Virus record (IMG/VR): IMGVR_UViG_3300008470_000181
Span: 1-40,356 of that record
Length of the DNA: 40,356 nucleotides
From: a virus
Direction: 5' to 3' (one strand)
Shown: one piece after another, positions 28,568 to 40,356 of the stretch
Layout of the letters: each line of letters begins with the position of its first letter
How positions within the stretch are numbered: the first letter of the stretch is position 1
Made by a program: the position numbers and the translations under genes
The notes under the pieces: generated by a model
Databases searched by the model: none
Told to the model about the DNA's origin: nothing
The model's input: the letters and a program-made list of their open reading frames with translations, nothing else

Positions 28568-28682
28568 GCTACCAACACTACTTATGTTAGCAACCATTAG
28601 TATTCCCTGCATAATATTAATAACACTACTTATATTATTAAACGTTATTATACCTTACTTAATATTTAACAAAGAAGAGTAA
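28560..28682 (+). CDS. 40-aa single-span membrane peptide
   Basis: ATG at 28560, overlapping the previous gene by 8 nt. Nearly the whole chain is hydrophobic (TLLMLATISIPCIILITLLI and on to IPYLIF), ending NKEE. One, possibly two, tightly packed membrane segments. A small membrane effector such as a holin or superinfection-exclusion peptide is possible but not shown. Confidence 0.5.
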   Translation: MNELPTLLMLATISIPCIILITLLILLNVIIPYLIFNKEE

Positions 28683-28684
28683 AA

Positions 28685-28804
28685 CTAATACCTCTTCCTT
28701 GATTTAACAATCTTCTTAGCAGATTTCTTTGCCTGTTTCTTCGTAGCACCAGCCACCATCTTAGCAGCTACTATACGTTTCTTTAGTTTCCTTTTACCCG
28801 GCAT
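28685..28804 (-). CDS. 39-aa Lys/Arg/Ala-rich basic peptide
   Basis: Minus-strand ATG at 28804, TAG at 28685-28687, 2 nt from the convergent stop of the membrane peptide. Composition resembles histone-H1-like or phage basic DNA-binding peptides (KRKLKKRIVAAKMVAGATKK, KKSAKKIVKSRKRY). It would be transcribed from the adjacent non-coding region. Could be a DNA-condensing or RNA-binding peptide; short length limits confidence. Confidence 0.45.
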   Translation of the reverse strand: MPGKRKLKKRIVAAKMVAGATKKQAKKSAKKIVKSRKRY

Positions 28805-29262
28805 AACACATATCTTTAATGATTAACAATACCCAAATATAATATTTTTTTTATTATCACACAACACACCACATTAATCAACTGATCTATTTATTCAATC
28901 CTTACCACCCCGGCCTGAATCACAAATTCATACTGGATGTAAAGTAGTAGTGAACGTTAAGGGAGTAAAGACTATTATAAAACTACCCGATGCCTTATTG
29001 CAAATGGAAACATACGGGGCCACATTTTCAAAACGAATCCAAAACCAAATCCAAATGTATATCGTATCAAGTTCTTAATTGAATTTGGATTGATATCCTT
29101 ACCTACTACTCATTCAGTACGTTGTTAAGAGCCTAGCGAGTGGAGAGTGTCTTTCGACTGCATTTCTACTACGAACTGAATGTCTTTGGTTGTGTTGCTT
29201 GTGTTCGTGTGTCACTTAGTGTGCGAAGTTATAAGAAATAAACTACAATGTCAAGTAGTTGA

Positions 29263-29339
29263 GTCATAGAACTGTCATAGTTTTGTCACAGTAATGTCAC
29301 AGAACTGTCACAGTATTGTCATATCCTTGTGACTGTATG
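29263..29339 (+). repeat. 11-bp iteron-like direct repeat array
   Basis: Direct repeats of GTCAYAGWAHT type at exact 11-nt steps: starts 29263, 29274, 29285, 29296, 29307, with weaker units at 29318 (GTCATATCCTT) and 29329. A further GTCAAGTAGTT lies 13 nt upstream. An 11-bp period is about one DNA helical turn, so a protein would bind the same face of each unit, as at plasmid or phage origin iterons or clustered operators. Confidence 0.8.
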
Positions 29340-29359
29340 CTTTGTAGTACTTCTTTATT

Positions 29360-29390
29360 CTTTGATTATTATTCATGATGATAATCAAGG
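29360..29390. promoter_or_regulatory. 31-nt imperfect palindrome, operator-like
   Basis: Dyad centred on 29375: GATTATTAT on the left against ATGATAATC on the right, extending outward to CTTT and AAGG with only G-T type mismatches; about 14 bp per arm around a 3-nt centre. It starts 20 nt after the iteron array. Either a dimeric-repressor operator or an RNA hairpin. Confidence 0.5.
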
Positions 29391-29525
29391 AGTTCATACG
29401 CTTCTTAAGGTCAATGTATGATGTTTACGTATTTGCATGTTCGTTATAGATGCTCACTTAGTTAATGTTGTTGTAGGAAAAAACTATGACGAGGTTGTGA
29501 GTAGTTAAGGAGCGTAAGCCTTGAC

Positions 29526-29553
29526 ATCAATCAACACTTCGGTGTTGATTGAT
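29526..29553 (+). repeat. UUCG hairpin family, copy 1
   Basis: Perfect 12-bp stem (ATCAATCAACAC) closed by C(TTCG)G, followed by TATT. No gene starts directly behind it. Member of the family described in the findings. Confidence 0.85.
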
Positions 29554-29588
29554 TATTGTGCATAGATACGATAATCTTACACACCCTT

Positions 29589-29610
29589 GAATGTTGGAGG
29601 TAAAACATTC
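29589..29610 (+). other. Hairpin with purine-rich GGAGG loop
   Basis: GAATGTT pairs with AACATTC around GGAGGTAA. It lies between UUCG hairpin copies 1 and 2; similar GGA-loop hairpins lie after copies 2 and 4. Confidence 0.5.
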
Positions 29611-29620
29611 CGTTTGCAAA

Positions 29621-29648
29621 GTCAGTCAATACTTCGGTATTGACTGAT
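29621..29648 (+). repeat. UUCG hairpin family, copy 2
   Basis: Stem CAGTCAATAC pairs perfectly with GTATTGACTG, extended by one or two outer pairs, around TTCG; then TTATTTAA. No gene starts directly behind it. Confidence 0.85.
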
Positions 29649-29666
29649 TATTTAACTATTACCTTA

Positions 29667-29685
29667 TTGGAGAGAGGAACTCCAA
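29667..29685 (+). other. Hairpin with GA-rich loop (AGAGGAA)
   Basis: TTGGAG pairs with CTCCAA around AGAGGAA, between UUCG hairpin copies 2 and 3. Confidence 0.45.
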
Positions 29686-29691
29686 CGATTG

Positions 29692-29719
29692 TTCAGTCAG
29701 TACTTACGTACTGATTGAA
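29692..29719 (+). repeat. UUCG hairpin family, copy 3 (TTAC loop)
   Basis: CAGTCAGTAC pairs with GTACTGATTG (one G-T pair) around TTAC. Then AATTTTAAAACAAGAGTT and the ATG of a 27-aa peptide at 29736. Confidence 0.8.
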
Positions 29720-29735
29720 TTTTAAAACAAGAGTT

Positions 29736-29819
29736 ATGAAAAATGATAAACTTATGAATATGTGTTACTACACAGTAATAGGATATTTAATCCTTGTATG
29801 TACACTTCTATTAACCTAA
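29736..29819 (+). CDS. 27-aa membrane micropeptide
   Basis: ATG at 29736, 17 nt after hairpin copy 3, preceded by an A-rich leader. The sequence has a short polar start then a hydrophobic span (YYTVIGYLILVCTLLLT). Its layout (hairpin, A/T leader, ATG) is the same as for larger genes in this region, which supports it as a real gene. Function unknown. Confidence 0.4.
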   Translation: MKNDKLMNMCYYTVIGYLILVCTLLLT

Positions 29820-29823
29820 TAAT

Positions 29824-29853
29824 ATTCAATCAATCCTTCTGGATTGATTGAAT
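29824..29853 (+). repeat. UUCG hairpin family, copy 4 (TTCT loop)
   Basis: 13-bp stem with CAATCAATCC pairing GGATTGATTG around TTCT. It lies 5 nt after the stop of the 27-aa peptide. Confidence 0.8.
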
Positions 29854-29862
29854 TTTGTACTC

Positions 29863-29879
29863 GATTAGAGAGGATAATC
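29863..29879 (+). other. Short hairpin with GAGAGGA loop
   Basis: GATTA pairs with TAATC around GAGAGGA, between UUCG hairpin copies 4 and 5. Stem of only 5 bp, so weak alone; listed because the same arrangement recurs. Confidence 0.35.
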
Positions 29880-29889
29880 TAACGTTACA

Positions 29890-29919
29890 AACCAACAAGT
29901 ACTTCGGTGCTTGTTGGTT
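29890..29919 (+). repeat. UUCG hairpin family, copy 5
   Basis: 13-bp stem (CCAACAAGTAC with GTGCTTGTTGG, one G-T pair) and C(TTCG)G loop. It lies 25 nt before the ATG at 29945. Confidence 0.85.
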
Positions 29920-29944
29920 ATTCACAATTATAACCAACTTAGAT

Positions 29945-30130
29945 ATGACTACTGAAAAGATGAATAAACTACGTTTACGTATAGGAAAACTTGTGCGTAA
30001 GTATAATGGGTTAAATGCTCGTAACTTTGAGCTTAAACCAACTGCTGTTGCTTATTTAGGCAACGAAAGAAAAAAAGAGTTGTTGCAAATGAGAATAATG
30101 TTACTTACGTATCATTATCACAATCATTAA
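29945..30130 (+). CDS. Small basic helical protein
   Basis: 61 aa from the ATG at 29945 (TTEKMNKLRLRIGKLVRKYN, then LGNERKKELLQMRIML). A longer frame opens at 29855, but hairpins 4-5 and the GA-loop hairpin would then lie in the coding region, so the start after hairpin 5 is preferred. Not recognised. Confidence 0.55.
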   Translation: MTTEKMNKLRLRIGKLVRKYNGLNARNFELKPTAVAYLGNERKKELLQMRIMLLTYHYHNH

Positions 30131-30134
30131 TAAT

Positions 30135-30160
30135 ACATAGAGTACTTCGGTATTCTTTGT
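30135..30160 (+). repeat. UUCG hairpin family, copy 6
   Basis: AGAGTAC pairs with GTATTCT around TTCG, extended by four outer pairs after one mismatch. It starts 4 nt after the previous stop and ends 29 nt before the next ATG. Confidence 0.75.
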
Positions 30161-30188
30161 TATTCTACTATGAATAACACCTTAAATT

Positions 30189-30377
30189 ATGTCACAAACC
30201 GACACAAGAAAAAGCAGAACCAATAGAGTTCGCAAACCAAAAATGAATCGTGAGAGATTAATCAACGCAAGATTGTGTTACTCTACACGTATTGACGCAG
30301 TAATTGGCAGTATTGCCTTAGTAGAGTTTAATCCAAATAGAATTGGAGCTACTCTAAAAGTTCTACGTCAATCTTAA
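30189..30377 (+). CDS. Small basic protein
   Basis: 62 aa, Arg/Asn/Lys-rich N-terminus (TDTRKSRTNRVRKPKMNRER) then a hydrophobic core (IDAVIGSIALVEFNPNRIGA). Possibly nucleic-acid-binding. Flanked by UUCG hairpins on both sides. Confidence 0.5.
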   Translation: MSQTDTRKSRTNRVRKPKMNRERLINARLCYSTRIDAVIGSIALVEFNPNRIGATLKVLRQS

Positions 30378-30384
30378 ATAACTT

Positions 30385-30417
30385 ACCAACATTGTGGGCT
30401 TGTCCTTCGGTGTTGGT
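30385..30417 (+). repeat. UUCG hairpin family, copy 7 (degenerate)
   Basis: ACCAACA pairs with TGTTGGT, but the loop is enlarged to 19 nt and still contains CTTCGG. Looks like a family member with an insertion. It lies before the 204-aa gene. Confidence 0.55.
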
Positions 30418-30471
30418 TGATTATTAGAAACGCTGACATTTGTTAGCGTGTGATAAACACTACATAAGAAT

Positions 30472-31086
30472 ATGAATACAATTAAATCATTTAATGGTTC
30501 TGCATTATTAGGAAGAACTAACGAATCAGCTCTTAAATCAATGCTATCAGGAGTTGCAACTTTATCATCTGTTACTAACCACGTATCAGCAAAAGGCACT
30601 CAATCTGTAAAATTTACTTTTGATGCAACAGCTCCTGGACAACAAGGACACGATGAATACTTAAGAACTTCTCAAGCTACGTTCTTAACTAAATCTTTAC
30701 AAAAGCTTGTTTACTTACTTGTTCATTCAGATAATGAAGAAGCTAAGACAGCATTTGGACAATTACCTGATGCAGTTACTGTAGTCAATGGAGCTGACGG
30801 ACAACCTATCTACTTTGAAACTAAAGAAGAATTAGAGGGGATTAGAGCAGAATACGGAGAAGATATTGACTTTATGTGGGTAGATGATGATGAATCTACT
30901 GCTCGTTACTGCGTTAAAGTAGCAGACGGAAAAGCTTATTGCGACCAAGTTATTGCAATATTTTCTAAATTAGTTGGTTCTAAATATAGCCTTAAGATTA
31001 GAAAGCCTATTTCAGCACAAGACGCTATAGCATTAAACTGCAAACCTGATAATTTTCAGCGTTTAAAGTCTATTGAATCAGCTTAA
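30472..31086 (+). CDS. 204-aa soluble early protein of unknown function
   Basis: Mixed alpha/beta, slightly acidic (MNTIKSFNGSALLGRTNESA; VKFTFDATAPGQQG; DFMWVDDDESTARYCVKVAD; KYSLKIRKPISAQDAI). It has a 54-nt leader after hairpin copy 7 and is followed 7 nt after its stop by the strongest terminator in the window, so it is probably a monocistronic, abundant transcript. A single-stranded-DNA-binding or host-takeover role would fit but no family is recognised. Confidence 0.65.
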   Translation: MNTIKSFNGSALLGRTNESALKSMLSGVATLSSVTNHVSAKGTQSVKFTFDATAPGQQGHDEYLRTSQATFLTKSLQKLVYLLVHSDNEEAKTAFGQLPDAVTVVNGADGQPIYFETKEELEGIRAEYGEDIDFMWVDDDESTARYCVKVADGKAYCDQVIAIFSKLVGSKYSLKIRKPISAQDAIALNCKPDNFQRLKSIESA

Positions 31087-31093
31087 ATTTACA

Positions 31094-31129
31094 GATACAC
31101 ATCCTACTCGGATGTGTATCTTTTTTTTT
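31094..31129 (+). terminator. Strong Rho-independent terminator
   Basis: Perfect 11-bp stem (GATACACATCC pairing GGATGTGTATC), 5-nt loop, then nine Ts. It ends the 204-aa gene's transcript. It differs from the UUCG hairpins in having a real T-run. Confidence 0.93.
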
Positions 31130-31284
31130 AAAATTGAATACCGATAGTTTGCTGAATTACTATGTGTATGAATACCATATTAAATACGAACAATACTTAA
31201 TTACCGACAGGATAATGAATACTTAGCTTGTTCATGTATTAGAAAGACTCGGATTATTATTTACAATTAAAAAACTTAAAAAAA

Positions 31285-31623
31285 ATGAGTGGAGAAATAA
31301 TTTATTTAGGCTGTATACTATCAATGGCAATTCCTGTTGGATATATAATAATGTTTATAGTAAAATACTACTATATTTCTATTATATGTAGAGAATGGAA
31401 TGAAAAGCTGTATAAGTATAGCCAGCATGTAGAACGTAAGAAAAGTTCAGGAGAACTTAAAAACAATTACCAATATTTAGAAAAAATGTATCTATATCCA
31501 GATGAGGTAGGGATATACGTATTTAAAAATTGGAGGGAGTCTGATCTTATAGCTGATAAGTTTACTTTATTTAATGTAAACTATTACAACGAAAACAAGA
31601 AGAAGAATAGAGAGGTGTATTAG
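31285..31623 (+). CDS. Membrane-anchored small protein
   Basis: 112 aa. Residues about 5-35 form one hydrophobic membrane span (IIYLGCILSMAIPVGYIIMF); the rest is a charged soluble domain (EWNEKLYKYSQHVERKKSSG and a Tyr/Lys-rich end). Preceded by about 150 nt of A/T-rich non-coding sequence after the terminator at 31094-31129 and followed by its own terminator. Possibly an inner-membrane host-interaction protein; not recognised. Confidence 0.55.
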   Translation: MSGEIIYLGCILSMAIPVGYIIMFIVKYYYISIICREWNEKLYKYSQHVERKKSSGELKNNYQYLEKMYLYPDEVGIYVFKNWRESDLIADKFTLFNVNYYNENKKKNREVY

Positions 31624-31635
31624 CCTCTCTTTTTT
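31609..31635 (+). terminator. Rho-independent terminator after the membrane protein
   Basis: AGAGAGG pairs with CCTCTCT (7 bp, 8-nt loop) followed by five further Ts. The left arm overlaps the end of the 112-aa gene. Confidence 0.85.
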
Positions 31636-31705
31636 ATGCAGAGATATTATATAAATATTCTGCAATTTAACACATATACCAACAACTAATAAAAAACAGA
31701 GGATT

Positions 31706-32095
31706 ATGGCACGATTAGCACAATTATTAGAAGAAAAAGGGTTTAAAAGCTCAGAAAGACTTAGAAAAGAATGTGATTTAAGCGATTGGGAGATTGCTAA
31801 AGTACTATTTGACAATTTAATTATAAAAGCCACTAAGAAAGGCTGTATGATTGAAAACAAGACTATTAAAAAGACTGTTAGGAATAACTTTGGCAAGACT
31901 AAAGTTATAAGCAAGACTAAAATTTCAAAGATTAGAATACCTTCTGTTTCTTTGATAGAAAACGGTGTTTTGTTTGACAGTCCTGCTTTGTGGGTTAAAC
32001 CGCTTATCCAGAAAAACAGAGTAATATTCTTTTGGAAAGGTATTTATATAGATGGAGCATCCATCTTTGGAGAATCAATTAATAGATATCAGTAA
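31706..32095 (+). CDS. Small protein of unknown function
   Basis: 129 aa: an N-terminal helical part (ARLAQLLEEKGFKSSERLRK; DLSDWEIAKVLF) that could be helix-turn-helix-like, a Lys/Thr-rich linker, and a beta-rich end (NRVIFFWKGIYIDGAS). Its TAA overlaps the next ATG. First gene of a cluster coupled to 32717. Confidence 0.55.
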   Translation: MARLAQLLEEKGFKSSERLRKECDLSDWEIAKVLFDNLIIKATKKGCMIENKTIKKTVRNNFGKTKVISKTKISKIRIPSVSLIENGVLFDSPALWVKPLIQKNRVIFFWKGIYIDGASIFGESINRYQ

Positions 32096-32463
32096 TGAAT
32101 AGAGTACACGTAACAAAAGATGGAAGTAGATTGTTTATCTCAGAGATGGACGATACCCACTTACAGAGTATGATTAAGTTAATGCTGAGAGGTGTTAACA
32201 AAATAAAGAAACAACTCAGATGTGAAGTCGTTGAGGACAAATTCCGAACAGCCATGTATGGCGAAAAGGATATGTTTGATGAGGACCAGCTGAACGAAAT
32301 GCTTGAGAACTTGACTGATAAACTATATCCTTATTTGGCTGAAATAGCTTTGAGAGGTATTGATATGTCAACAGAGCTTCAAGCTACGTTTGAAAGAGAA
32401 GGTATGAACCTTATCAGAAAAGACGATGATGAAGATTTTCAGATATTGTTAGATCAAATGTAA
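32095..32463 (+). CDS. Small acidic helical protein
   Basis: 122 aa. NRVHVTKDGSRLFISEMDDT at the start, then amphipathic helices (LQSMIKLMLRGVNKIKKQLR; DEDQLNEMLENLTDKLYPYL). Coupled to both neighbours by TAATG overlaps. Not recognised. Confidence 0.55.
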   Translation: MNRVHVTKDGSRLFISEMDDTHLQSMIKLMLRGVNKIKKQLRCEVVEDKFRTAMYGEKDMFDEDQLNEMLENLTDKLYPYLAEIALRGIDMSTELQATFEREGMNLIRKDDDEDFQILLDQM

Positions 32464-32717
32464 TGACTAAAGAAGAGGCAACAGACTTCTTAGCTTGGTT
32501 AAAGGCTAAGGAGTCTGAAAGTCATTTCTTAGCAAGATTCAAGACTTGGAAACCATTGGTTGTAAGCAACCCAGAGTACTATGATAAGAAACGTGAAGCT
32601 CAAATTGTATTAGGAATATTCCAATGGCAAAGGCCATACGAGGAATTAGCTAAGGTACACCCTGGACTAACACCGTTCACTTATCAGAAATACAGAGAAA
32701 AATACAATCTTCAATAA
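32463..32717 (+). CDS. Small helical protein
   Basis: 84 aa (TKEEATDFLAWLKAKESESH; YYDKKREAQIVLGIFQWQRP; TPFTYQKYREKYNL). The last three genes (31706-32717) form a coupled group. The gene's last codons form the left arm of hairpin copy 8. Not recognised. Confidence 0.55.
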   Translation: MTKEEATDFLAWLKAKESESHFLARFKTWKPLVVSNPEYYDKKREAQIVLGIFQWQRPYEELAKVHPGLTPFTYQKYREKYNLQ

Positions 32718-32737
32718 GTGCTTCGGTACTTATTGAA
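32710..32737 (+). repeat. UUCG hairpin family, copy 8
   Basis: 12-bp stem (CAATAAGTGC with GTACTTATTG, one G-T pair) around TTCG, overlapping the stop codon of the previous gene. Then AATTTAAAATATATAATT and ATG at 32755. Confidence 0.85.
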
Positions 32738-32754
32738 ATTTAAAATATATAATT

Positions 32755-32907
32755 ATGAAAAAAATAATATGTAAAATATTTGGACATAAGTGGATGTGCA
32801 TAATGAGGCGCAATTACAAGGATGAATACACTGAACAATACTCAGCTGTATCAACCCATAAATGCACGAGATGTACTCGGCATATATACGAAGAATGGAA
32901 CGCTTAA
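32755..32907 (+). CDS. Zinc-ribbon peptide, DUF1660-like
   Basis: 50 aa: KKIICKIFGHKWMC then KCTRCTR. The M-K-K-x-x-C-x-x-F-G-H-K-W start with a later CxxC is the signature I recall for phage DUF1660 proteins, likely one zinc site (C6, H11 or C15, C37, C40). It starts 17 nt after hairpin 8 and ends 16 nt before the RadC-like ATG. Confidence 0.65.
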   Translation: MKKIICKIFGHKWMCIMRRNYKDEYTEQYSAVSTHKCTRCTRHIYEEWNA

Positions 32908-32923
32908 CTTTAAACTAAAAACT

Positions 32924-33370
32924 ATGGAATTAAAATCATTTGCTAAAGAACTGGAAGCAGTATACACTACGAAAGATGATGTACATAGGATGAAGATAGG
33001 TTCTTCTCAAGCTTTAAGTGAATTTGTAAGGAAAGTATTTCCGGTACAAATAGATTACAGAGAAGCCTTTATGTGTGTATATCTAAATACAGCTAACAAT
33101 ACTATTGGTTTTACAATAGTTGGATTAGGAGGTCTAACAGGAACTATTGCAGACCCTAAGACTGTATTTCAACATGGTTTATTGTGTAATGCAAGAAGTG
33201 TAATACTTGTACTTAATCATCCATCAGGTAATTTAAAGCCAAGTCAATCTGATATTAATCTTACTAATAAAATGATAGATTGTGGAAAGTTACTTGATAT
33301 TACAGTACTTGATCACTTAATAATAACAGAAGAAAGTTTTTTTAGCTTTACTGATGAAGGATTAATTTAA
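32924..33370 (+). CDS. radC-like: RadC/JAMM-like protein with altered metal site
   Basis: 148 aa from the ATG at 32924; a longer frame from 32822 overlaps the zinc-ribbon gene and is not preferred. RadC family core: YREAFMCVYLNT (E47), then VLNHPSGNLKPSQSDINLT with H99, S107 and D110. The usual family motif is HNHPSG; here the first His is Leu (L97), so one zinc ligand of the JAMM metallopeptidase site is lost. RadC proteins are anti-restriction or DNA-repair associated, and JAMM folds also act as deubiquitinase-like enzymes. Because the phage has a PRTRC operon 2.2 kb downstream, it may act with that system, but catalysis is doubtful. Confidence 0.8.
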   Translation: MELKSFAKELEAVYTTKDDVHRMKIGSSQALSEFVRKVFPVQIDYREAFMCVYLNTANNTIGFTIVGLGGLTGTIADPKTVFQHGLLCNARSVILVLNHPSGNLKPSQSDINLTNKMIDCGKLLDITVLDHLIITEESFFSFTDEGLI

Positions 33371-33382
33371 TACATAATAGTT

Positions 33383-33802
33383 ATGAGACAAACGAGTATA
33401 GATTGTTATAATCAAATTAAAGCTGAAGGCTTATTATCTAAAAGAAGATTGGAAGTTTATGAAGCTATTTTAAAATCAGCTCCCTGCTCAAGCGGGGAGG
33501 CTTTTTCAAAAATGCTAACAAGCAGTAATGTTATTTCACAATCCAGAGCAAGATTTACAGAACTAAGAGAATTAGGTGTTATCTATGAAGTTGGAGTTAA
33601 AAAATGTTCTATAACAAACAGAAATGTAATAGAATGGGATTTAACAGATAACATACCATTTGAGTTAGAGAAAAATAAAACTAAAAGTAAGAAAACAAAA
33701 ATAAATGAAGTTTTATTTCTAATAGAAAGACTTGGAAAAGAGTTAACTGAAGGAGAAAAAGTTGAGCTAAGAAAGATTTATCACTTAGTGAAAAAAATTT
33801 AA
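33383..33802 (+). CDS. Winged-helix DNA-binding protein
   Basis: 139 aa. LLSKRRLEVYEAILKSAPCS, SSGEAFSKML, then SQSRARFTELRELGVIYEVG give the helix-helix-recognition helix-wing order common in small phage helix-turn-helix proteins. The C-terminal third is Lys-rich and helical. It starts 12 nt after the RadC-like stop. Likely a transcription or replication accessory factor. Confidence 0.7.
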   Translation: MRQTSIDCYNQIKAEGLLSKRRLEVYEAILKSAPCSSGEAFSKMLTSSNVISQSRARFTELRELGVIYEVGVKKCSITNRNVIEWDLTDNIPFELEKNKTKSKKTKINEVLFLIERLGKELTEGEKVELRKIYHLVKKI

Positions 33803-33803
33803 T

Positions 33804-33835
33804 AATTTAATCAGTACTTCGGTGCTGATTGAATT
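33804..33835 (+). repeat. UUCG hairpin family, copy 9
   Basis: AATCAGTAC with GTGCTGATT around TTCG, extended outward by further A-T pairs into flanking AATTT. It ends 14 nt before the ATG at 33850. Confidence 0.85.
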
Positions 33836-33849
33836 TAAAAATTATAATT

Positions 33850-34089
33850 ATGCAATCACCAGACTATCATTTAAAAGAAACTAAATTGTTTAATGGAAGA
33901 GAAGCTTATATGATAATTGAATCATTACGTACTGAACGTGATGCTTCAGTTAAAATAATAGAAGATATGGAAAAAGATGGTAAAAGACCATTGTTTACCG
34001 TAGACTTTATTAAACAAGAAATAAATCAGCTAATTAAGAAAATTGAAGATAATACAAGAATACATGAAGCTGACAAAGAAAGAGTATGA
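33850..34089 (+). CDS. Small charged helical protein
   Basis: 79 aa from the ATG at 33850, after hairpin 9 (a longer frame from 33829 would start inside the hairpin). QSPDYHLKETKLFNGREAYM; FIKQEINQLIKKIEDNTRIH. Ends in ATGA overlap with the next zinc-ribbon peptide. Not recognised. Confidence 0.55.
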   Translation: MQSPDYHLKETKLFNGREAYMIIESLRTERDASVKIIEDMEKDGKRPLFTVDFIKQEINQLIKKIEDNTRIHEADKERV

Positions 34090-34205
34090 ATGAAGAAATA
34101 GCATGTCCAGACTGCGAAGATGGTACTCAACATTTAAGTAACTATGTATCGCAAGAATGTGATACCTGTGATGGTACAGGTATAATAAAATTAGAAATAG
34201 AATAA
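34086..34205 (+). CDS. 39-aa zinc-finger peptide (CPDC...CDTC)
   Basis: Two CxxC(xxG) knuckles, CPDCEDG and CDTCDGTG, resembling half of a DnaJ-type zinc domain. Four Cys would bind one zinc. The start overlaps the previous stop (ATGA), which supports translation. Role unknown. Confidence 0.6.
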   Translation: MNEEIACPDCEDGTQHLSNYVSQECDTCDGTGIIKLEIE

Positions 34206-34207
34206 CT

Positions 34208-34384
34208 ATGGCAGATTTAAGATGCCCTAATTGTTACGACAATTTAGGAAAAGATAAAGAAAACACTAACCCAGCGTATTGTGGTAATTGTGGAGAAGAT
34301 AACATTTCTAATCCAAGAGGAGATAACTCCGACCATGAATACGAAAAACAAGCTCATAAAGCTTATTATAATAAATATTTATAA
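34208..34384 (+). CDS. 58-aa zinc-ribbon peptide
   Basis: ADLRCPNCYD and YCGNCGED give a CxxC pair on each side (C6, C9, C25 or so, C28), a rubredoxin/zinc-ribbon pattern, followed by an acidic/His tail. It starts 2 nt after the previous stop; the next ATG follows 2 nt after its own. With the two other zinc peptides nearby it forms a micro-cluster. Confidence 0.6.
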   Translation: MADLRCPNCYDNLGKDKENTNPAYCGNCGEDNISNPRGDNSDHEYEKQAHKAYYNKYL

Positions 34385-34386
34385 TT

Positions 34387-34599
34387 ATGTTAATAAACAT
34401 AGCAGTAATTGATTTAAGCGTAAATGGACTATATCTTTATAATGTTCCAAAAGAATTTGATTCTGAACAAATAGAAGAATTTATAACTTCTCAAGGACAC
34501 CGTATGAGTAATTGCTCATGGGGAGAATATAATGGAGGAATAGTTGATTTAAGAGATCATGACTTTACAGTAAAAAACATTACTCAAAATAATGTCTAA
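34387..34599 (+). CDS. Small acidic protein
   Basis: 70 aa (LINIAVIDLSVNGLYLYNVP; FDSEQIEEFITSQGH; SWGEYNGGIVDLRDHDF). Overlaps the next gene by 8 nt. Not recognised. Confidence 0.5.
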   Translation: MLINIAVIDLSVNGLYLYNVPKEFDSEQIEEFITSQGHRMSNCSWGEYNGGIVDLRDHDFTVKNITQNNV

Positions 34600-35023
34600 T
34601 AATAACTATATGTACACCATTCGCATGCACCTTGGAAGAGGTAAACATTGCGGATGGTGGCAAGTAAGAGAATACATAAGTAATAGTAAACAAGGAAAAA
34701 TAGTCGAATACATTGACCCTTCTAAGTTTACTATTATTTTAAGAACATGCTATCTTTATAATAGGGTAGTTCAAGCTGAGAAAATACTGAATGGAGCACA
34801 TAAAGAACCTTGTGCTTGGATATGTGTTGGAAGCTACGTTAAAGAAGATATTGAATTATTTAGCATAGATGATGAACATCCATATCTATTAGAATACAAT
34901 CCAAGAAAAAATAAACATTGGATGGTTTACGGAGATTTCGGTCCACCAGATCCAATAGATAAAGAAGAAATTCAATTTATTTATACTAAAAAAACAAAAC
35001 TATATATATATGACAAAATATGA
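34592..35023 (+). CDS. Conserved-looking protein of unknown function
   Basis: 143 aa, rich in Trp, Tyr and Cys (MYTIRMHLGRGKHCGWWQVR; TIILRTCYLYNRVVQAEKIL; EPCAWICVGSY; EYNPRKNKHWMVYGDF). A compact alpha/beta domain is likely. The string KHCGWWQVR is distinctive but I do not recognise a named family. Overlaps both neighbours (8 and 14 nt). Confidence 0.55.
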   Translation: MSNNNYMYTIRMHLGRGKHCGWWQVREYISNSKQGKIVEYIDPSKFTIILRTCYLYNRVVQAEKILNGAHKEPCAWICVGSYVKEDIELFSIDDEHPYLLEYNPRKNKHWMVYGDFGPPDPIDKEEIQFIYTKKTKLYIYDKI

Positions 35024-35399
35024 TGTTAAATCACCGGATGGTATCTCTATTGCAAGAAGCGGTTATTATAGTACAAAAACCGAAGCTGGAGAAGCCTTAG
35101 AAAAATGGGTAGAAAACTATAGTAGGCAAGGATATTACTCGTCTAACAATGGTAGAATACCATTAGAAGAACTTGCATTACATTGTGAATTAGAAACAAT
35201 TACTATGACAGATAAAGAAGCAGTAGATGAAGCAGTTCAAGAATCATTAGATGATTTATTTAGTGAATTAGTTGACGAATTTCATTTAGAAAATGGAGAT
35301 ATTTCTCCTAATCAAATGCAAAAGCTTGAATCAATTCAAGATGAACTGTCTGAATTACTATTAGCTTATGTTAATCAAAACATAATTGAAAAAGATTAG
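35010..35399 (+). CDS. Small protein, accessory type of Bacteroidota mobile elements
   Basis: 129 aa. TKYDVKSPDGISIARSGYYS, ALEKWVENYSRQGYYSSNNG and RIPLEELALHCEL follow a pattern I have seen in Bacteroidota plasmid and phage accessory proteins (SPDG...GYYSS...RIPLEEL). The second half is acidic and helical. Overlaps the previous gene by 14 nt. About 195 nt of non-coding sequence follows, before the PRTRC operon. Confidence 0.6.
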   Translation: MTKYDVKSPDGISIARSGYYSTKTEAGEALEKWVENYSRQGYYSSNNGRIPLEELALHCELETITMTDKEAVDEAVQESLDDLFSELVDEFHLENGDISPNQMQKLESIQDELSELLLAYVNQNIIEKD

Positions 35400-35523
35400 T
35401 TTGTTCTTCTTTGTTTTGTGTTTGCTTGTGGTTACAATCAACTGATGATAAAATATAAAGCTGGGCGTTAGAGAGCGTTAGACTATAAACACACACAGTG
35501 TAAGGGGCTTAAGATTGTAATAC

Positions 35524-35551
35524 TTCAATTAGTACTTCGGTGCTAATTGAA
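35524..35551 (+). repeat. UUCG hairpin family, copy 10
   Basis: 12-bp stem (CAATTAGTAC with GTGCTAATTG, one G-T pair) around TTCG. It lies 45 nt before the first PRTRC gene. Confidence 0.85.
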
Positions 35552-35596
35552 TTTTACATATATTTACACTGAAAGTTATTAATTAATCCAACACGT

Positions 35597-36295
35597 ATGA
35601 AAACAAATATTTTCGCTACCATAGCGCCATTTCTTGGCTCTATGAATTTAACACTAACGGTTGCTAAAGGTTCAGGAGATACTGTAATAGTATCATTGTT
35701 ACCACAACCAAGAATTAAAGACAATGCTAAAGATAGTGTACAGCCAATGGTTATTAGAGGTACTATTAAGGAACTTGACGAAGAGTTTTTCAATGCTATT
35801 AAAGAACCAATGACTAAAGTTACAGGTATTGTTATTGAAATTGATAATTTTGAAAAAGGTGCTGATAAATTAGCAGAAGATAACAAAGCTAAAGATGCTA
35901 TTAAAGCTGAAGCTAAGAAGAATAAAGATAAAGCTGATAAGATTGTAAGAAAAGCTGAAGATTTATTTGAAGCTAAAGAATTAGATAAAGCTGAAAAAGA
36001 ATTAGCTAAAGCTATTGTTCTTACTCCAGGTACTCCAGCTATAAACAAGCTATCTAATAGCATTAAAGATGCTAAAGAAGCATTAAAGCCTAAAGACCAA
36101 GTAGATATTTTTTCAGCTATTGAAGAAGTAAAGGAACAACTACCTGAATCTCCTAATAAATTAGAAATAGAAAACAATCGTATTGTTCATTCTAATCCAA
36201 TGAGTGAGGCAGAGATAGAAGTATTACAAGATGAGTTAGACGATAAAGCTAACTTCCAAGTTGAATCAGTAAACAATTTTTATTATGAATCTTGA
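35597..36295 (+). CDS. PRTRC system protein E
   Basis: 232 aa. The N-terminal domain (MKTNIFATIAPFLGSMNLTL, SGDTVIVSLLPQPRIKD, MVIRGTIKELDEEFFNAIKE) matches the PRTRC-E pattern as I recall it (TIGR03741): a beta-rich start, then LPxPR-KD and the TxxELDEEF helix. The middle (about 90-150) is Lys/Ala/Glu-rich coiled helix, the end acidic. First gene of the PRTRC operon; its stop overlaps the PRTRC-C start by 11 nt. Molecular role in the system is unknown. Confidence 0.8.
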   Translation: MKTNIFATIAPFLGSMNLTLTVAKGSGDTVIVSLLPQPRIKDNAKDSVQPMVIRGTIKELDEEFFNAIKEPMTKVTGIVIEIDNFEKGADKLAEDNKAKDAIKAEAKKNKDKADKIVRKAEDLFEAKELDKAEKELAKAIVLTPGTPAINKLSNSIKDAKEALKPKDQVDIFSAIEEVKEQLPESPNKLEIENNRIVHSNPMSEAEIEVLQDELDDKANFQVESVNNFYYES

Positions 36296-36494
36296 AGCTA
36301 AAACACTAAAAAGAGTATTCAAATACGGAAAACTTACATTATCAGATCCAGACCCAATTATGGGACCTAAAGATGTAATGCAATTTTATTCAGGACAATA
36401 TCCCGAATTGACTAATGCATCACTTGAAGGCCCATCTATTGAAAATGATGAGATAGTATTTGAATTTGGTAAAACTGTTGGTGTAAAAGGGTAA
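36285..36494 (+). CDS. PRTRC system protein C, prokaryotic ubiquitin-like
   Basis: 69 aa, the family's usual size. KRVFKYGKLTLSDPDPIMGP, DVMQFYSGQYPELTNAS, and EFGKTVGVKG match PRTRC-C (TIGR03738; Prok_Ub fold by established classification). In ubiquitin-like systems the modifier ends in glycine for activation by an E1; this protein ends VGVKG, so the C-terminal Gly is already exposed. Coupled by overlap to E and to the following ORF (TAATG). Modifier function is an inference from family and neighbours. Confidence 0.85.
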   Translation: MNLEAKTLKRVFKYGKLTLSDPDPIMGPKDVMQFYSGQYPELTNASLEGPSIENDEIVFEFGKTVGVKG

Positions 36495-36691
36495 TGGATA
36501 ATAACTTAAACATTATAGACCAATTATGCAAACAGGAATTACAGCCGTTAAAAGGAGAGAAATTGGAAAGTTTCCATCAATCTCTAGGGAGGGTATTGGC
36601 ACAAGAGAGGGAATTTATGTACCTCGTGAACCAAAACGAACCCCAAGAAAGGCAGTTGATACAGTCAAATCAAATAGACCACATTCCTTAG
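36494..36691 (+). CDS. 65-aa ORF overlapping the PRTRC F start
   Basis: ATG coupled by TAATG to PRTRC-C. Protein-like, Gln/Glu-rich helices (NLNIIDQLCKQELQPLKGEK; FMYLVNQNEPQERQLIQSNQ). It overlaps the first 55 codons of the 409-aa ORF in another frame. Either a separate small protein, or the true N-terminus of the F-like protein joined by a -1 shift; in that case its stop (TAG 36689) is where the F frame begins to look protein-like (LDKKEFYNELC). Confidence 0.4.
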   Translation: MDNNLNIIDQLCKQELQPLKGEKLESFHQSLGRVLAQEREFMYLVNQNEPQERQLIQSNQIDHIP

Positions 36692-37755
36692 ATAAGAAAG
36701 AGTTTTACAATGAATTATGCGTACAGTTGAAGCAAGGTAGCTTCGATGTACGCAATAATTTTGTAGCTAACCTATACAAGTGCTTAAAGAATCATCCTGA
36801 TTATCAGAATGACTTAATATTCACTCAAGATATGGAAGTTAACAAAATTGTATCTCTTATAAGGAATAAGATAAATGATTTGCTACCAGAAAACTGCAAT
36901 ACAACTATTGATGTTGATAGGTATGGAGATAATACCATTAGTGTATCATCACATATAGAGCAAGATTTACTCTCTTCTCAAAATGCAATGCCATTAAAAT
37001 GGTTATTGAAATTGAAACGAGAGAATCCTAAGCTGTTTGTTATAGTTAGAAATGTAATATCACTAATCAAAGGAAAGTATAAGATAGATGGACCCGATGA
37101 TGGATTTGCAGAAATGGCTAAAGAATATTTTTTATCAGGATTCATGGAGAATGAAGATGAAGATGAAAATGACTTTAAACACTATTCAAAAGATTTCTTT
37201 GAGCATTGCTCTAAGGAAGAAGTAATGCAACTTCAATCATATTATGACAACAAGTTCTTATGTGAAGTAAAAGCAAAAGATGGTGTCGGACATCTCCTTT
37301 TAGATGAGATAAACGATATCTATAAAATGATTGATGAAGATTGGTTAATGAATCAGATAAACACCTATAACCCAAGAAACGAAATGTATAAAACATTACT
37401 TGATTGGGCTAAACAGGGTATGAATCTATACTTTAATCATAATAATGTAGTTCTTTCTGATATAATTTTTGTAACAGAAGAAGAGTTAGAATGTGGCACA
37501 CCAGTAACAGCAATGGATTTCCTCAAGTTTGAGTGGAATTTTAATTGTGAATATTGGGAACAAGGAATTGAAATGGCTCTTAATGAGCATGCAGGTCAAT
37601 TTGGAGTTATTGAACCACGAAACTTTATTATACTACAAGAAGATAACTACATCAATCATTTTGACGAGAAATATGAGTTATTCGGGAAAGAGCTTGAACA
37701 TTGGTTTGACACCGGTACTGATATTTATCATAAACAAATATGTGAGTGGGAATAA
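36526..37755 (+). CDS. Putative PRTRC system protein F
   Basis: 409 aa from the only upstream ATG, but the first 50 residues are basic and low in order (KRREIGKFPSISREGIGTRE), unlike the acidic rest, so the start is doubtful. Body: LDKKEFYNELCVQLKQGSFD; MPLKWLLKLKRENPKLFVIV; many Glu/Asp-rich helices with Tyr/Phe; end HWFDTGTDIYHKQICEWE. It is in the slot occupied by PRTRC-F between C and B, and of about the right size. No enzyme motif seen; function of F is not known. Confidence 0.6.
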   Translation: MQTGITAVKRREIGKFPSISREGIGTREGIYVPREPKRTPRKAVDTVKSNRPHSLDKKEFYNELCVQLKQGSFDVRNNFVANLYKCLKNHPDYQNDLIFTQDMEVNKIVSLIRNKINDLLPENCNTTIDVDRYGDNTISVSSHIEQDLLSSQNAMPLKWLLKLKRENPKLFVIVRNVISLIKGKYKIDGPDDGFAEMAKEYFLSGFMENEDEDENDFKHYSKDFFEHCSKEEVMQLQSYYDNKFLCEVKAKDGVGHLLLDEINDIYKMIDEDWLMNQINTYNPRNEMYKTLLDWAKQGMNLYFNHNNVVLSDIIFVTEEELECGTPVTAMDFLKFEWNFNCEYWEQGIEMALNEHAGQFGVIEPRNFIILQEDNYINHFDEKYELFGKELEHWFDTGTDIYHKQICEWE

Positions 37756-37757
37756 TT

Positions 37758-38450
37758 ATGGAAATACAAGAAAAATTATACAAACCCGTACAGTTTATAA
37801 CAGTTCATAGGTCAGGAGATTCTTATTATTTGGAGTCAGGGAACATTAATGATGATTTGTCTTTCGGGGCAAGTCATCCATTGATGAAACAAACTATCGT
37901 TGATATAATGGACACTATGTCTGTTGACGTTACCGATAGGCTTCAATTTAAAGGAATGATACCTAAGAATGTTGTTACTGTAAGAAATACTGCTGGAAAC
38001 ACTTTAGTCGCTTGGATAAGCAAACCACAATCAGTAAAAATGTCTTTTACAAAGACTGTTGGTTTGCGTGATATGACGGCTCCTGTTCCTGCTATGCTTT
38101 GGTTGGCTAAAAACGACCATTTATCGGTATTTGCTTTAAAGAGTAATACCATAAACAATAAGACTAAACTATATGTTGCACCATTTCCTAATGTTAGTGG
38201 AAGTGGTTCAGTATGTTGGGGTAGTGGTAAATGGCCAAAAGATGTTCAGTACTATGAAGATTTCATAGAAAAAGTTGAATATGGATTTTGGAATAGTAAA
38301 TTTAGTCACAATATGGAAGGAGTAGTAAGTAAGTCTAAATCTGACTTATATAGATTATGGGATGCCCTTAATGGAGCACCATTTTTTCCTACTCAACAAC
38401 TATTGGAGAGTCCAGAAAGTAATAAAATTAAAGAAAAATTAGGAGTATGA
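37758..38450 (+). CDS. PRTRC system protein B (E2-like)
   Basis: 230 aa from the ATG at 37758 (a GTG 12 nt earlier is in frame). LQFKGMIPKNVVTVRN, TVGLRDMTAPVPAMLWLAKN, DHLSVFALKSN and PFPNVSGSGSVCWGSGKWPK are the core of PRTRC-B (TIGR03737), assigned to a prokaryotic E2-like fold (Prok-E2_D). The single Cys in SGSVCWGS (C153) is where a thioester Cys could be; this is a guess from conservation. Follows F and overlaps the next small gene by ATGA. Confidence 0.85.
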   Translation: MEIQEKLYKPVQFITVHRSGDSYYLESGNINDDLSFGASHPLMKQTIVDIMDTMSVDVTDRLQFKGMIPKNVVTVRNTAGNTLVAWISKPQSVKMSFTKTVGLRDMTAPVPAMLWLAKNDHLSVFALKSNTINNKTKLYVAPFPNVSGSGSVCWGSGKWPKDVQYYEDFIEKVEYGFWNSKFSHNMEGVVSKSKSDLYRLWDALNGAPFFPTQQLLESPESNKIKEKLGV

Positions 38451-38653
38451 AAGAATATAAAGTAGGAAGCGACTATAGGTATTCACAAATACCTGAGAAC
38501 AGTACAGATGATTTAGAGGTAAACGATTATGGCTCTGAACATTTAGGACAGAATGCAATTCACTTAAGATACCATAAAACAGAAACAGATGTTTGGTTTA
38601 TATGGGATGGACAAGCTAATGAAGGTATTTTAAAATGTGTATATAATAAATGA
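38447..38653 (+). CDS. Small acidic protein inside the PRTRC operon
   Basis: 68 aa (YKVGSDYRYSQIPENSTDDL; LRYHKTETDVWFIWDGQANE). It overlaps its neighbours by ATGA on both sides, so it is translated with B and the ThiF gene. Not one of the named PRTRC proteins I know; could be an operon-specific partner. Confidence 0.6.
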   Translation: MKEYKVGSDYRYSQIPENSTDDLEVNDYGSEHLGQNAIHLRYHKTETDVWFIWDGQANEGILKCVYNK

Positions 38654-39414
38654 AACAGAAGATACACTATACTCCTGACTACTTAATTAACACACCTCAT
38701 CCAATTACAGTTAATGTGATAGGAGCAGGTGGTAATGGTTCACAAGTAGTTCAAGGATTAGCAAGAATGCACGTTACTCTACAAGCATTAGGTAAACCGG
38801 GCTTATTAGTCTGTTTATATGATGATGATAAAGTAACAGAAGCGAATCAAGGTAGGCAACTATTCTCCCAAACAGATATTGGAAGATATAAAGCTGAGGT
38901 CTTGATTACAAGAATCAATAGATTCTATGGTACTGGTTGGTTAAATGAGAATTGTAAGTATAATTACAAGCAATACTCATCTACTAATATCGTAATAAGT
39001 TGTGTTGATACAGCTTCTGCAAGACAGAAAATATCACATGTTTGGAAAGATAAGAAAACCTTAAAAGATTGGGAAGTTCCTTATTATTGGTTAGACTTAG
39101 GTAATTCTGCTAAATCAGGACAAGTTATACTTGGTAGTTCAGGAAGTACTGAACAACCAAAGTCTAAAAAATTTGATACAGTAAGAAAATTACCCACAGT
39201 AGATAAAGAATTTGACTTAAAGAGTATTAAGGATGATAATGAACCAAGTTGTTCTATAGCAGAAGCTATCGAGAAACAAGACTTGTTTATTAATCCTATT
39301 GTTTCATATATGGGGTTAAACCTATTATGGAAAGTTCTTAAAGACTATTCTATAGTACATAGAGGATATTACATAAATTTAGAAACAGGAAAAACAAATC
39401 CAATAGGATTGTAA
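38650..39414 (+). CDS. PRTRC system ThiF-family protein (E1-like)
   Basis: 254 aa. Adenylating Rossmann fold: VNVIGAGGNGSQVVQGLARM with the glycine loop at 25-30, acidic DDD58-60 at the second strand end, N66 to R69 (NQGRQ), K81, and D120 in SCVDTASARQ. Near the end is PSCSIAEAIEKQDLFINPIV with C201, a conserved-looking Cys and the best candidate for a thioester. Length matches PRTRC ThiF proteins (TIGR03736). It would adenylate the C-terminal Gly of PRTRC-C; that activity is inferred. Last PRTRC gene before dnaB. Confidence 0.88.
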   Translation: MKQKIHYTPDYLINTPHPITVNVIGAGGNGSQVVQGLARMHVTLQALGKPGLLVCLYDDDKVTEANQGRQLFSQTDIGRYKAEVLITRINRFYGTGWLNENCKYNYKQYSSTNIVISCVDTASARQKISHVWKDKKTLKDWEVPYYWLDLGNSAKSGQVILGSSGSTEQPKSKKFDTVRKLPTVDKEFDLKSIKDDNEPSCSIAEAIEKQDLFINPIVSYMGLNLLWKVLKDYSIVHRGYYINLETGKTNPIGL

Positions 39415-39417
39415 AAC

Positions 39418-39447
39418 AATTAAAGGGTGCTTCGGTGCTCTTTGATT
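39418..39447 (+). repeat. UUCG hairpin family, copy 11
   Basis: Stem with AAAGGGTGC against GTGCTCTTT (three G-T pairs) around TTCG, extended by A-T pairs, with a short T-run behind it. It lies between the PRTRC ThiF stop and the dnaB ATG (18 nt downstream). The T-run means it could also end the PRTRC transcript. Confidence 0.8.
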
Positions 39448-39465
39448 TTTAATACATATAAATAA

Positions 39466-40356
39466 ATGAGTGAACAATTAGATTTTTTTACAGAGAGTAA
39501 CTTTATTGGACAATCAAATGTCGATTTAGAAGAAATTGTACTTGCTACTTTTATTAATTTTCCAGATACTTATTATCAGGTCGCAGACCAACTAAGTATT
39601 CATGAATTTTCTACAATAGAATGTAAGTACATCTACAGTGCGGTAAGAGAGTTATCAAATGACTCAAAAGTTGATATAGTTCTGGTAACAGACTATTTAG
39701 TAAGTAAAAAATATGTTGACTATGTAATGAAAAAAAAGATAGGGTTTGATCTAATCGTTCATCTTAATGAAATATGTGAACGTATTGACAATGATGAGCA
39801 CCTACTTGAGCATATTAAATTACTTAATGGATATGCAAGACGTAGAGCCTTAATGCTACTATCAGATAAAGTAAATGAAAGTTGTAATGATATGATTGAC
39901 CCTATGTTAATTCTTGGTTCTATATCTGAAAAGATAATTGAGATTCAAGAAATGGGAGAAGTTGAAGAATTTGACGTTAATAAAGCCTTAGATAAAGCTA
40001 TTGATTATCAAGATAATCAAGATACAACACATTTTATTAAATCTTATCTTACTGAACTTGACTTACATATTACAGGATTCGAGCCTCATGATTTAGTAAT
40101 TCTTGCAGCAGCTCCATCTATGGGTAAAACTTCATTAGCACTTGAAATATTCAAGAACAACATCCTTAGTGGTGTTCGTGTAGCTATGTTTTCTTTAGAA
40201 ATGAGTGAAACTGCATTAATAAACAGAATTATTGCTTCAGATGCTTTTATTCCATTAAAAAGTATAAGAAATAAGTGTATGTCTCATAAGAATTATCAAA
40301 TGAGAGATGCAACTAAAGAAAAATTAGCTCAAGAAAGATGGTGGATTGATGATAAA
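39466..40356 (+). CDS. dnaB: Replicative DNA helicase, DnaB type (3' end outside window)
   Basis: 297 codons, cut at the right edge. The N-terminal primase-interacting helical domain (about 1-165: VDLEEIVLATFINFPDTYYQ, IHEFSTIECKYIYSAVRE) and then the RecA-like ATPase: Walker A AAAPSMGKTSL at 214-224 (K221, T222) and the next strand MFSLEMS at 241-247 with E245. The start follows hairpin 11 and an A/T leader. Marks the beginning of the replication genes. Confidence 0.92.
   Translation, partial: MSEQLDFFTESNFIGQSNVDLEEIVLATFINFPDTYYQVADQLSIHEFSTIECKYIYSAVRELSNDSKVDIVLVTDYLVSKKYVDYVMKKKIGFDLIVHLNEICERIDNDEHLLEHIKLLNGYARRRALMLLSDKVNESCNDMIDPMLILGSISEKIIEIQEMGEVEEFDVNKALDKAIDYQDNQDTTHFIKSYLTELDLHITGFEPHDLVILAAAPSMGKTSLALEIFKNNILSGVRVAMFSLEMSETALINRIIASDAFIPLKSIRNKCMSHKNYQMRDATKEKLAQERWWIDDK

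Follow-up and report, generated by a model that had tools for sequence, protein, structure and literature searches.

A family of RNA hairpins biased toward early-gene spacers in a clade of crAss-like phages

We analyzed the complete virus record IMGVR_UViG_3300008470_000181 (40,356 bases, hereafter the window) and found that the plus strand carries a family of short stem-loops, many with a UUCG loop, in the spacers of its early genes. Compared across related genomes, the sequences indicate that this family is a clade-wide RNA element under selection, whose novelty lies in the host group and in the bias toward early spacers, and whose function we infer. That the hairpins are real and selected at the RNA level is strongly supported by covariation, strand bias and searches in relatives. 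Hairpins of this kind are known in other phages, and it is the early-gene bias that looks new.

Judging by its predicted proteins, the window is from a crAss-like phage: a crAss muzzle protein and a crAss tail ring protein were matched in Pfam, and a terminase, a major head protein and a DnaB-type helicase in PHROGs. Late genes occupy the minus strand of the left 27.6 kb. Open reading frames (ORFs) of the plus strand occupy 27.7-28.6 kb and resume, beyond a non-coding stretch, at about 29.7 kb, from where they run to the end of the window. The hairpins in the window, with one classical terminator for contrast, are the following.

29526 to 29553, plus strand: hairpin 1, 12 base pairs (bp), UUCG loop, leader region; covariance-model score 43.1
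29620 to 29649, plus strand: hairpin, 13 bp, UUCG loop, leader region
29691 to 29720, plus strand: hairpin, 13 bp, UUAC loop, 15 nucleotides (nt) before the ATG of an ORF of 27 amino acids (aa)
29824 to 29853, plus strand: hairpin, 13 bp, UUCU loop, 5 nt past the stop of the 27-aa ORF
29890 to 29919, plus strand: hairpin, 13 bp, UUCG loop, 25 nt before ATG 29946
30135 to 30160, plus strand: hairpin, 7 bp and then three pairs beyond a mismatch, UUCG loop, 32 nt before ATG 30189
30385 to 30417, plus strand: variant hairpin with an inner stem, CUUCGG in the 3' arm and not in the loop
32710 to 32737, plus strand: hairpin, 12 bp, UUCG loop, overlapping the stop of gene 32463-32717, 17 nt before ATG 32755
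33804 to 33835, plus strand: hairpin, 14 bp, UUCG loop, 2 nt past a stop and 14 nt before an ATG
35524 to 35551, plus strand: hairpin, 12 bp, UUCG loop, 45 nt before ATG 35597 (PRTRC gene cluster)
39418 to 39447, plus strand: hairpin, 13 bp, UUCG loop, 4 nt past the stop of a ThiF-like gene and 18 nt before the helicase ATG 39466
31093 to 31121, plus strand: non-member, classical intrinsic terminator with a T9 run, 163 nt before the next gene

A preliminary description of this DNA had named hairpins at these 11 places, and each folds stably on the plus strand, with a minimum free energy (MFE) of -8.7 to -18.2 kcal/mol, a z score of -3.9 to -8.8 and 0/200 shuffles as stable. The C(UUCG)G loop form that it gave most of them holds for eight of the 11, where the loop is exactly TTCG (29526, 29621, 29890, 30135, 32710, 33804, 35524 and 39418). 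The remaining three deviate in loop or register, namely 29692 (UUAC), 29824 (UUCU) and 30385, where the CUUCGG of the 3' arm lies around an inner GGG..UCC stem. Ten of the named copies are thus simple stems with 4-nt loops and 30385 folds otherwise; its sequence recurs unchanged in the related locus L100. The literal core TACTTCGGTG occurs three times, and an Rfam search of the window gave no match at the gathering score. All 11 copies are intergenic or overlap a stop codon, and eight of them (29691, 29890, 30139, 32710, 33804, 35524, 39418 and 30385) lie 14-54 nt upstream of a start codon, in agreement with the earlier count of at least seven at 14-60 nt.

Such stems stand far above the chance level. 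On the plus strand of 28601-40356 (11.8 kb of early strand) there are eight TTCG stems of at least 9 bp, comprising seven named copies and one inside a gene (the stem at 30135 is shorter), and none appeared in any of 200 dinucleotide shuffles. On the coding strand of the late region (28.6 kb) we found no TTCG stem of at least 7 bp, and none of at least 9 bp on either late strand; the earlier remark that the minus-strand late module lacks the hairpins is therefore borne out for TTCG stems of at least 7 bp. The stem inside a gene, a perfect 12-bp TTCG hairpin at 37851-37878 in the Prok-E2_D gene, was excluded from the family, as a counterpart exists in one of the five relatives that cover this gene. 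It was found in G003 only, by a peptide-motif search of six contigs (five of which cover the gene), and G001 and G002 have no TTCG stem of at least 6 bp at the corresponding place.

The stems vary in sequence while pairing is kept. In a gapless alignment of ten window copies 98.3% of cells are paired and both-sided changes occur at 8 of 12 pairs, and with 28 copies from the window and its relatives the values are 97.6% and 8/12; the alignments (A1 and A2) were chosen by hairpin form, which inflates the percentages paired and affects the counts of both-sided changes and the model hits less. For the ten copies, 0/500 shuffles matched the value of any of the five measures, and pairing fell to 25-48% when the partner was shifted by 1-3 columns; for the 28 copies, at most 2/500 shuffles were as high on any measure. 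At one orthologous site compared among five distant relatives the signal is only mildly above shuffles, with double changes at 2 of 21 pairs (equalled by 71/500 shuffles) and a covariation score equalled by 14/500.

Searches carried the family into related genomes. Head-protein relatives were found at 52 loci among viral contigs, and the large related records examined include G001 (69 kb), G010 (45 kb), G007 (71 kb) and G009 (71 kb); such related contigs do not count as independent samples. Named phages are distant (head-protein identity of 24-29% among the matches listed, the best 40 of 68), and megablast of 15 kb of the window against public phages gave no match. The covariance model of the ten window copies, run on relatives as the preliminary description had envisaged, recovered 30 further sense-strand copies at E values of 0.01 or lower in G001, G002, G010, L099, L100 and L101, a count that leaves out the window's own copies, opposite-strand echoes and hits above E 0.01. 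Where a hairpin was matched on both strands, the sense strand scored higher. The model also reaches G007 and G008 (eight sense-strand matches at E of 0.013 or lower, plus one echo), and it gave no match at E of 0.1 or lower in the late-module loci L009, L010, L065 and L066, nor in G009, G004, L102, L110 and the phages FpV4, crAss001 and phi14:2. A second model of the 28 copies (R2) matched six of 17 further records at E of 0.1 or lower and left 11 without a match. The six are three close relatives that supply some of the model sequences, G026 (3.6e-7), and G027 and G028 (0.005-0.007). R2 found no match in any of the eight helicase relatives from clades with other hairpins and nothing convincing in a control of 472 kb of Bacteroidota loci, crAss001, phi14:2 and FpV4 (one match, E 0.092).

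Plain sequence searches were less productive. A blastn search with a typed 49-nt consensus hairpin against phages gave weak matches (best E 0.9 among the matches listed, the best 20 of 64), one DNA pattern searched in viral contigs matched three contigs, and the exact core GTACTTCGGTRC was present in 0/26 related records. This absence seemed to be evidence against a clade-wide element until the spacers were folded without an assumed loop. For this we folded every spacer of 25-120 nt between codirectional genes in the clade and called it structured at z < -2. Genes were called by us (ATG only, longest ORF first), and the late strand was assigned from structural genes or helicase orientation. 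Structured spacers numbered 105/158 early and 21/119 late, or 98/144 versus 18/105 once identical ones were removed (Fisher p = 4e-16), the count excluding hairpins inside called genes and spacers below 25 or above 120 nt (310/468 early and 267/386 late neighbors). The contrast is 7/22 versus 2/52 for spacers of 25-40 nt and 57/68 versus 0/19 for those of 41-60 nt. Among the 468 early gene neighbors 267 are less than 25 nt apart, 158 are 25-120 nt apart and 43 more; for the 386 late neighbors the figures are 251, 119 and 16. The element thus marks a large share of the existing early spacers, not most early genes.

Other lineages use other sequences in these spacers: among the spacers listed, C-UUAG-G loops occur in G008, GAGC..GCUC stems in G007, G004 and L102, and CAAAG..CUUUG stems in G009. 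By eye, many stems end in UCAA/UUGA followed by a UUUUAAA-like sequence. Control spacers with z < -2 numbered 4/10 early and 1/10 late in FpV4, 2/8 in the first and 5/14 in the second half of phi14:2, and 11/43 in Bacteroidota. In crAss001 there were 0/4 on the minus strand of 50-100 kb and 7/12 in the first half, an excess that we assume is due to the included tRNA cluster.

The selected molecule appears to be the transcribed RNA. In 62 early hairpins from the 158 spacers, located by a search that treated all mismatches alike, the mismatches were 51 G-U, 10 A-C and 27 other (p about 1e-7), or 47, 8 and 20 after duplicate removal, and this preference for G-U over A-C implies that the transcribed RNA is selected. 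Of 144 early spacers, 116 fold more stably as sense than as antisense strand, 23 less stably and five equally. The earlier proposal that the RNA structure is selected therefore holds on four counts: compensatory changes, copies found in relatives by the model, G-U over A-C mismatches and the greater stability of the sense strand. These data also bear on a DNA-level role. In phage N4, the virion RNA polymerase uses hairpin promoters extruded from the template DNA strand, and the hairpins here could be N4-like promoters of that type, or else mobile or recombination sites, a reading that we find barely credible. Perfect stems are identical on both strands. The mismatches argue against a template-strand hairpin, which would hold A-C where the transcribed strand has G-U; the position of the hairpins is, moreover, tied to stop codons. 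What speaks for a DNA-level role is a 2971-aa protein of G001 (G001:C1:51476-60391) with a DADHDGD motif, together with the virion RNA polymerase that crAss-like phages are described as encoding (PMC8375218, in the text available). The motif reads SDADHDGDK in full, and the large proteins of G007 and G009 carry similar ones. The motif makes the G001 protein a candidate for the giant virion RNA polymerase; its first 2841 aa gave no Pfam match above the cut-off.

The position of the hairpins is informative about their role. In the 62 early hairpins the distance from stop codon to hairpin has a median of 4.5 nt (interquartile range [IQR] 0.25-15.5) and that from hairpin to AUG a median of 16.5 nt (IQR 12-22), so that the typical layout is a stop codon, 4 nt, the hairpin, a 17-nt A-rich start region and the AUG. 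The two medians are 4 and 17 nt in spacers of 46-65 nt, 14 and 28 nt in spacers of 66-120 nt, and 22 and 80 nt in spacers of 121-260 nt, a class that contains true terminators. As spacers lengthen, the hairpin stays near the stop and not near the AUG. Its role may therefore belong to the end of the upstream gene, and closeness to that gene's stop favors a function at the 3' end or as a boundary. The A-rich stretch at -10 to -13 and the A at -3 precede late genes too; the leader thus looks ordinary and the hairpin is the addition. This start region resembles the initiation region of Flavobacterium johnsoniae, whose initiation sites are reported to have little structure at -20 to +20 (PMC6847099, in part).

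We see an even chance that the hairpins are boundary marks, which would protect the 3' ends of mRNAs and leave the following start accessible. A long early transcript would be cut in AU-rich gaps or degraded from downstream, and the hairpin, as an RNase-resistant boundary, would stop 3'-5' exonucleases and leave the upstream message intact. By folding away the sequence beside the start region, it would also keep the A-rich, Shine-Dalgarno-less initiation site single-stranded. In some first early spacers a second hairpin follows, sometimes sharing the 3' arm of the first, and competition between the two may tune translation.

Several points weigh against a boundary role. A decay barrier leaves the scarcity of late-spacer hairpins unexplained. 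In spacers of 61-120 nt the contrast is smaller (34/54 early versus 16/34 late), and long late spacers hold structures too. Since 267/468 early neighbors are less than 25 nt apart, most early cistrons are not bounded by a hairpin. The first two copies (29526 and 29620) lie in the non-coding leader and not between called genes, and 124 nt separate the 35524 copy from the stop before it. Finally, T-runs of at least 5 follow 10/74 hairpins near an AUG, where they are not rarer than in far early hairpins, so some copies may terminate transcription.

This last point leads to leaky intrinsic termination, in which partial polymerase stops would grade the expression of the early operon, with possible later read-through by a modified or phage polymerase. 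We consider it fairly unlikely for the family. Many hairpins lie 2-9 nt past stops, a terminator-like placement; a terminator scan flags two of the 11 copies (29824 and 35524) as terminator-like; and T8-tailed hairpins stand 16-19 nt before the AUG in L103, L109 and L110, which makes leaky termination a serious rival at least in those relatives. Against it, 64/74 near-AUG early hairpins have no T-run of at least 5, and a U-tract directly after the stem is not a property of the family as a whole (10/74). Such runs follow 5/24 early hairpins far from an AUG and 6/15 late ones; the difference from the near-AUG class is p = 0.025 for late and p = 0.51 for far early hairpins, the latter meaning that the contrast is not clean. 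A second count on folded spacers gave 15/100 early and 10/21 late. The classical T9 terminator of the same phage, at 31093, lies far from the next gene, and a terminating hairpin would require the promoter of the next gene to overlap or precede it. In scans for early promoters, sigma70-like sites were at chance level and TTTG..TANNTTTG was not above chance, although the consensus of the phage itself may differ. The family was compared in this respect with the promoter stem-loop cassettes (PeSL) of T4, which combine a stem-loop with an early promoter.

In several leader-proximal spacers a second stem seems to follow the hairpin directly, which we regard as a lead. The stems in question are listed here.

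29551 to 29576, plus strand: possible second stem GATTATTGTG/TACGATAATC, abutting hairpin 1; G001 has GATTATTAC/GTAATAATC
29913 to 29938, plus strand: competing stem GTTGGTTAT/ATAACCAAC, which shares the 3' arm with hairpin 29890 and would occlude the start region of gene 29946
30158 to 30179, plus strand: second hairpin TGTTATTC/GAATAACA, before ATG 30189
30430 to 30449, plus strand: second hairpin, before ATG 30472; L100 has a hairpin of different sequence

At 29551-29576 the MFE fold of the window prefers another downstream stem over GATTATTGTG/TACGATAATC, and the competing stem GTTGGTTAT/ATAACCAAC, identical in sequence in G010 and G001, is absent from the MFE fold. Counterparts of the 30158 hairpin stand at the same place in G001 (TTGTTATTC/GAGTAACAA) and G010 (TGATTATTC/GAGTAATCA), with two pairs changed on both sides between them, and one pair is changed on both sides between TGATGTTT/AAACATCA (G001, G002) and TGATATTT/AAATATCA (L100). 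Small hairpins with purine-rich loops (GGAGGUAA, GAGAGGA) also lie between the UUCG hairpins at 29590-29609, 29667-29685 and 29865-29882; the last is TTAGA/TCTAA and has the counterpart TTGGA/TCCAA in G010, a matched change noted by eye.

These stems bring in a role in translation, in which the hairpin would bound the initiation region, prevent mispairing, or alternate with a downstream hairpin, so that the start opens or closes. The hairpin-AUG distance is indeed tight in spacers of 46-65 nt (IQR 15-20), and at three sites relatives have second stems of different sequence in which complementarity is kept. At 29890 formation of the first hairpin leaves the start region mostly free; a fold computed without its 5' arm lets the 3' arm pair with ATAACCAAC, and this closes -16 to -8 before the AUG. 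The first hairpin is, however, much more stable than this second stem (-18.0 versus -10.6). Since the first hairpin often wins, the second stem appears in only part of the 11 MFE folds, and the excess of alternative stems overall is modest (21 versus 12.6 expected from shuffles, z 2.6, redundant rows counted). Late genes have the same start context mostly without hairpins, and in long spacers the hairpin tracks the stop and not the AUG. Control of translation as the main role is fairly unlikely in our judgment.

A further alternative is that an RNA-binding protein, of phage or host origin, recognizes the hairpins and would thereby control the early mRNAs jointly, as T4 DNA polymerase does at its own mRNA hairpin. 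The apical form AGURC-UUCG-GURCU recurs at different sites in the closest relatives, and a UACUUC stretch persists where the pairing register shifts. The loops nevertheless vary (UUCG, UUAC, UCAC, UUCU, UUCC) and differ between clades, and the identity of apical arms is barely higher within genomes than between clades (0.382 versus 0.348), a weak outcome for the within-genome homogenization expected of sites for a binding protein; the arms were aligned by loop, and this blurs shifted registers. We hold joint control by a binding protein to be highly unlikely.

Finally, a bolder extension of the boundary idea, which we rate as distinctly unlikely, is a phage-wide RNA code. An early or middle cistron before a spacer would usually end in a hairpin that changes in sequence from lineage to lineage but holds its position; the first genes would have a second, competing hairpin, so that the ribosome finishing the upstream cistron would determine whether the following start opens, and late spacers would largely be without the code. 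If this were true, the hairpins would act on RNA to keep early gene expression distinct from late, a form of control little explored for crAss-like phages in the literature found. A structured element in many early and few late spacers is in any case a concrete target for testing, and it could help to recognize the early modules of uncultured relatives.

Other features of the window adjoin the hairpins. Directly downstream of hairpin 35524 is a PRTRC-like gene cluster (35597-39414) with matches to PRTRC E, prokaryotic ubiquitin, Prok-E2_D and ThiF. Within the non-coding sequence that precedes the early genes, at about 29270-29325, there are short direct repeats of the type TGTCACAG(T/A)A, noted by eye here and in G010 (complement of about 1560-1640), which are possibly iterons of a replication origin. 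A segment at 29341-29372, TTTGTAGTACTTCTTTATTCTTTGATTATTAT, has a near-identical counterpart in G010 and a similar one in G001, in differing surroundings, and is a candidate early promoter.

Among top-ranked open-access PubMed Central papers on crAss-like phages we found no account of such hairpins: the crAss001 study describes three transcription modules and a virion polymerase, and the word "hairpin" is absent from its available text (PMC8375218), while in the accessible portion of another crAss paper "hairpin" means protein beta-hairpins (PMC6949934). Intrinsic terminators share with the family a hairpin soon after a stop codon; they differ from it in that 64/74 near-AUG hairpins are without a T-run and a gene starts about 17 nt downstream. 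The T4 gene 43 operator (PMC3014915, in part) is likewise a hairpin before a phage start, and its UAAC loop resembles the UUAC and UCAC loops found here, but it is a single autoregulatory hairpin reaching the ribosome site and not a multi-copy family. The SAS/ESAS elements of Cluster K mycobacteriophages, inverted repeats upstream of starts whose function is given as not known (PMC3203893, PMC12699233, in the parts available), are similar in standing upstream of many phage gene starts, in being kept at related genes and in differing in sequence by subcluster (PMC3203893). ESAS differ in being imperfect 17-bp repeats with spacers mostly of 4-13 bp, and the SAS motif GGGATAGGAGCCC had no match upstream of starts at up to two mismatches (three at three mismatches, versus 2.2 expected). 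In E. coli, experimentally mapped intercistronic hairpins protect upstream cistrons as decay barriers in 12% of operons (PMC5927463, in part). The likeness lies in hairpins between cistrons and a proposed exonuclease block; the structures described here occupy a large share of early spacers of 25-120 nt.

The closest parallel is offered by the CUUCGG intercistronic hairpins, which the available text of PMC8948821, citing Tuerk 1988, describes as abundant in T4, with a GUUCGG hairpin in phage 7-11, and as varying in role, mRNA stability among the roles (citing Tuerk 1988 and T4 gene 32 work). Like these short C(UUCG)G stems of intergenic regions, eight of the 11 window copies have the form (X)2-8 CUUCGG (Y)2-8 with complementary arms, and the family is predominantly intergenic. 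The comparison with T4 made in the preliminary description thus fits, with the amendment that UUCG is a preference of this lineage and not a defining feature, because relatives place hairpins with other loops in the same kind of site. Unlike the known phage CUUCGG hairpins, the family is biased toward the early/middle strand, lies near stops, extends through a crAss-like clade and takes other loops in relatives. With it, the record of CUUCGG hairpins in phage mRNAs would come to include phages whose hosts are presumably Bacteroidota, a group that initiates translation independently of Shine-Dalgarno pairing.

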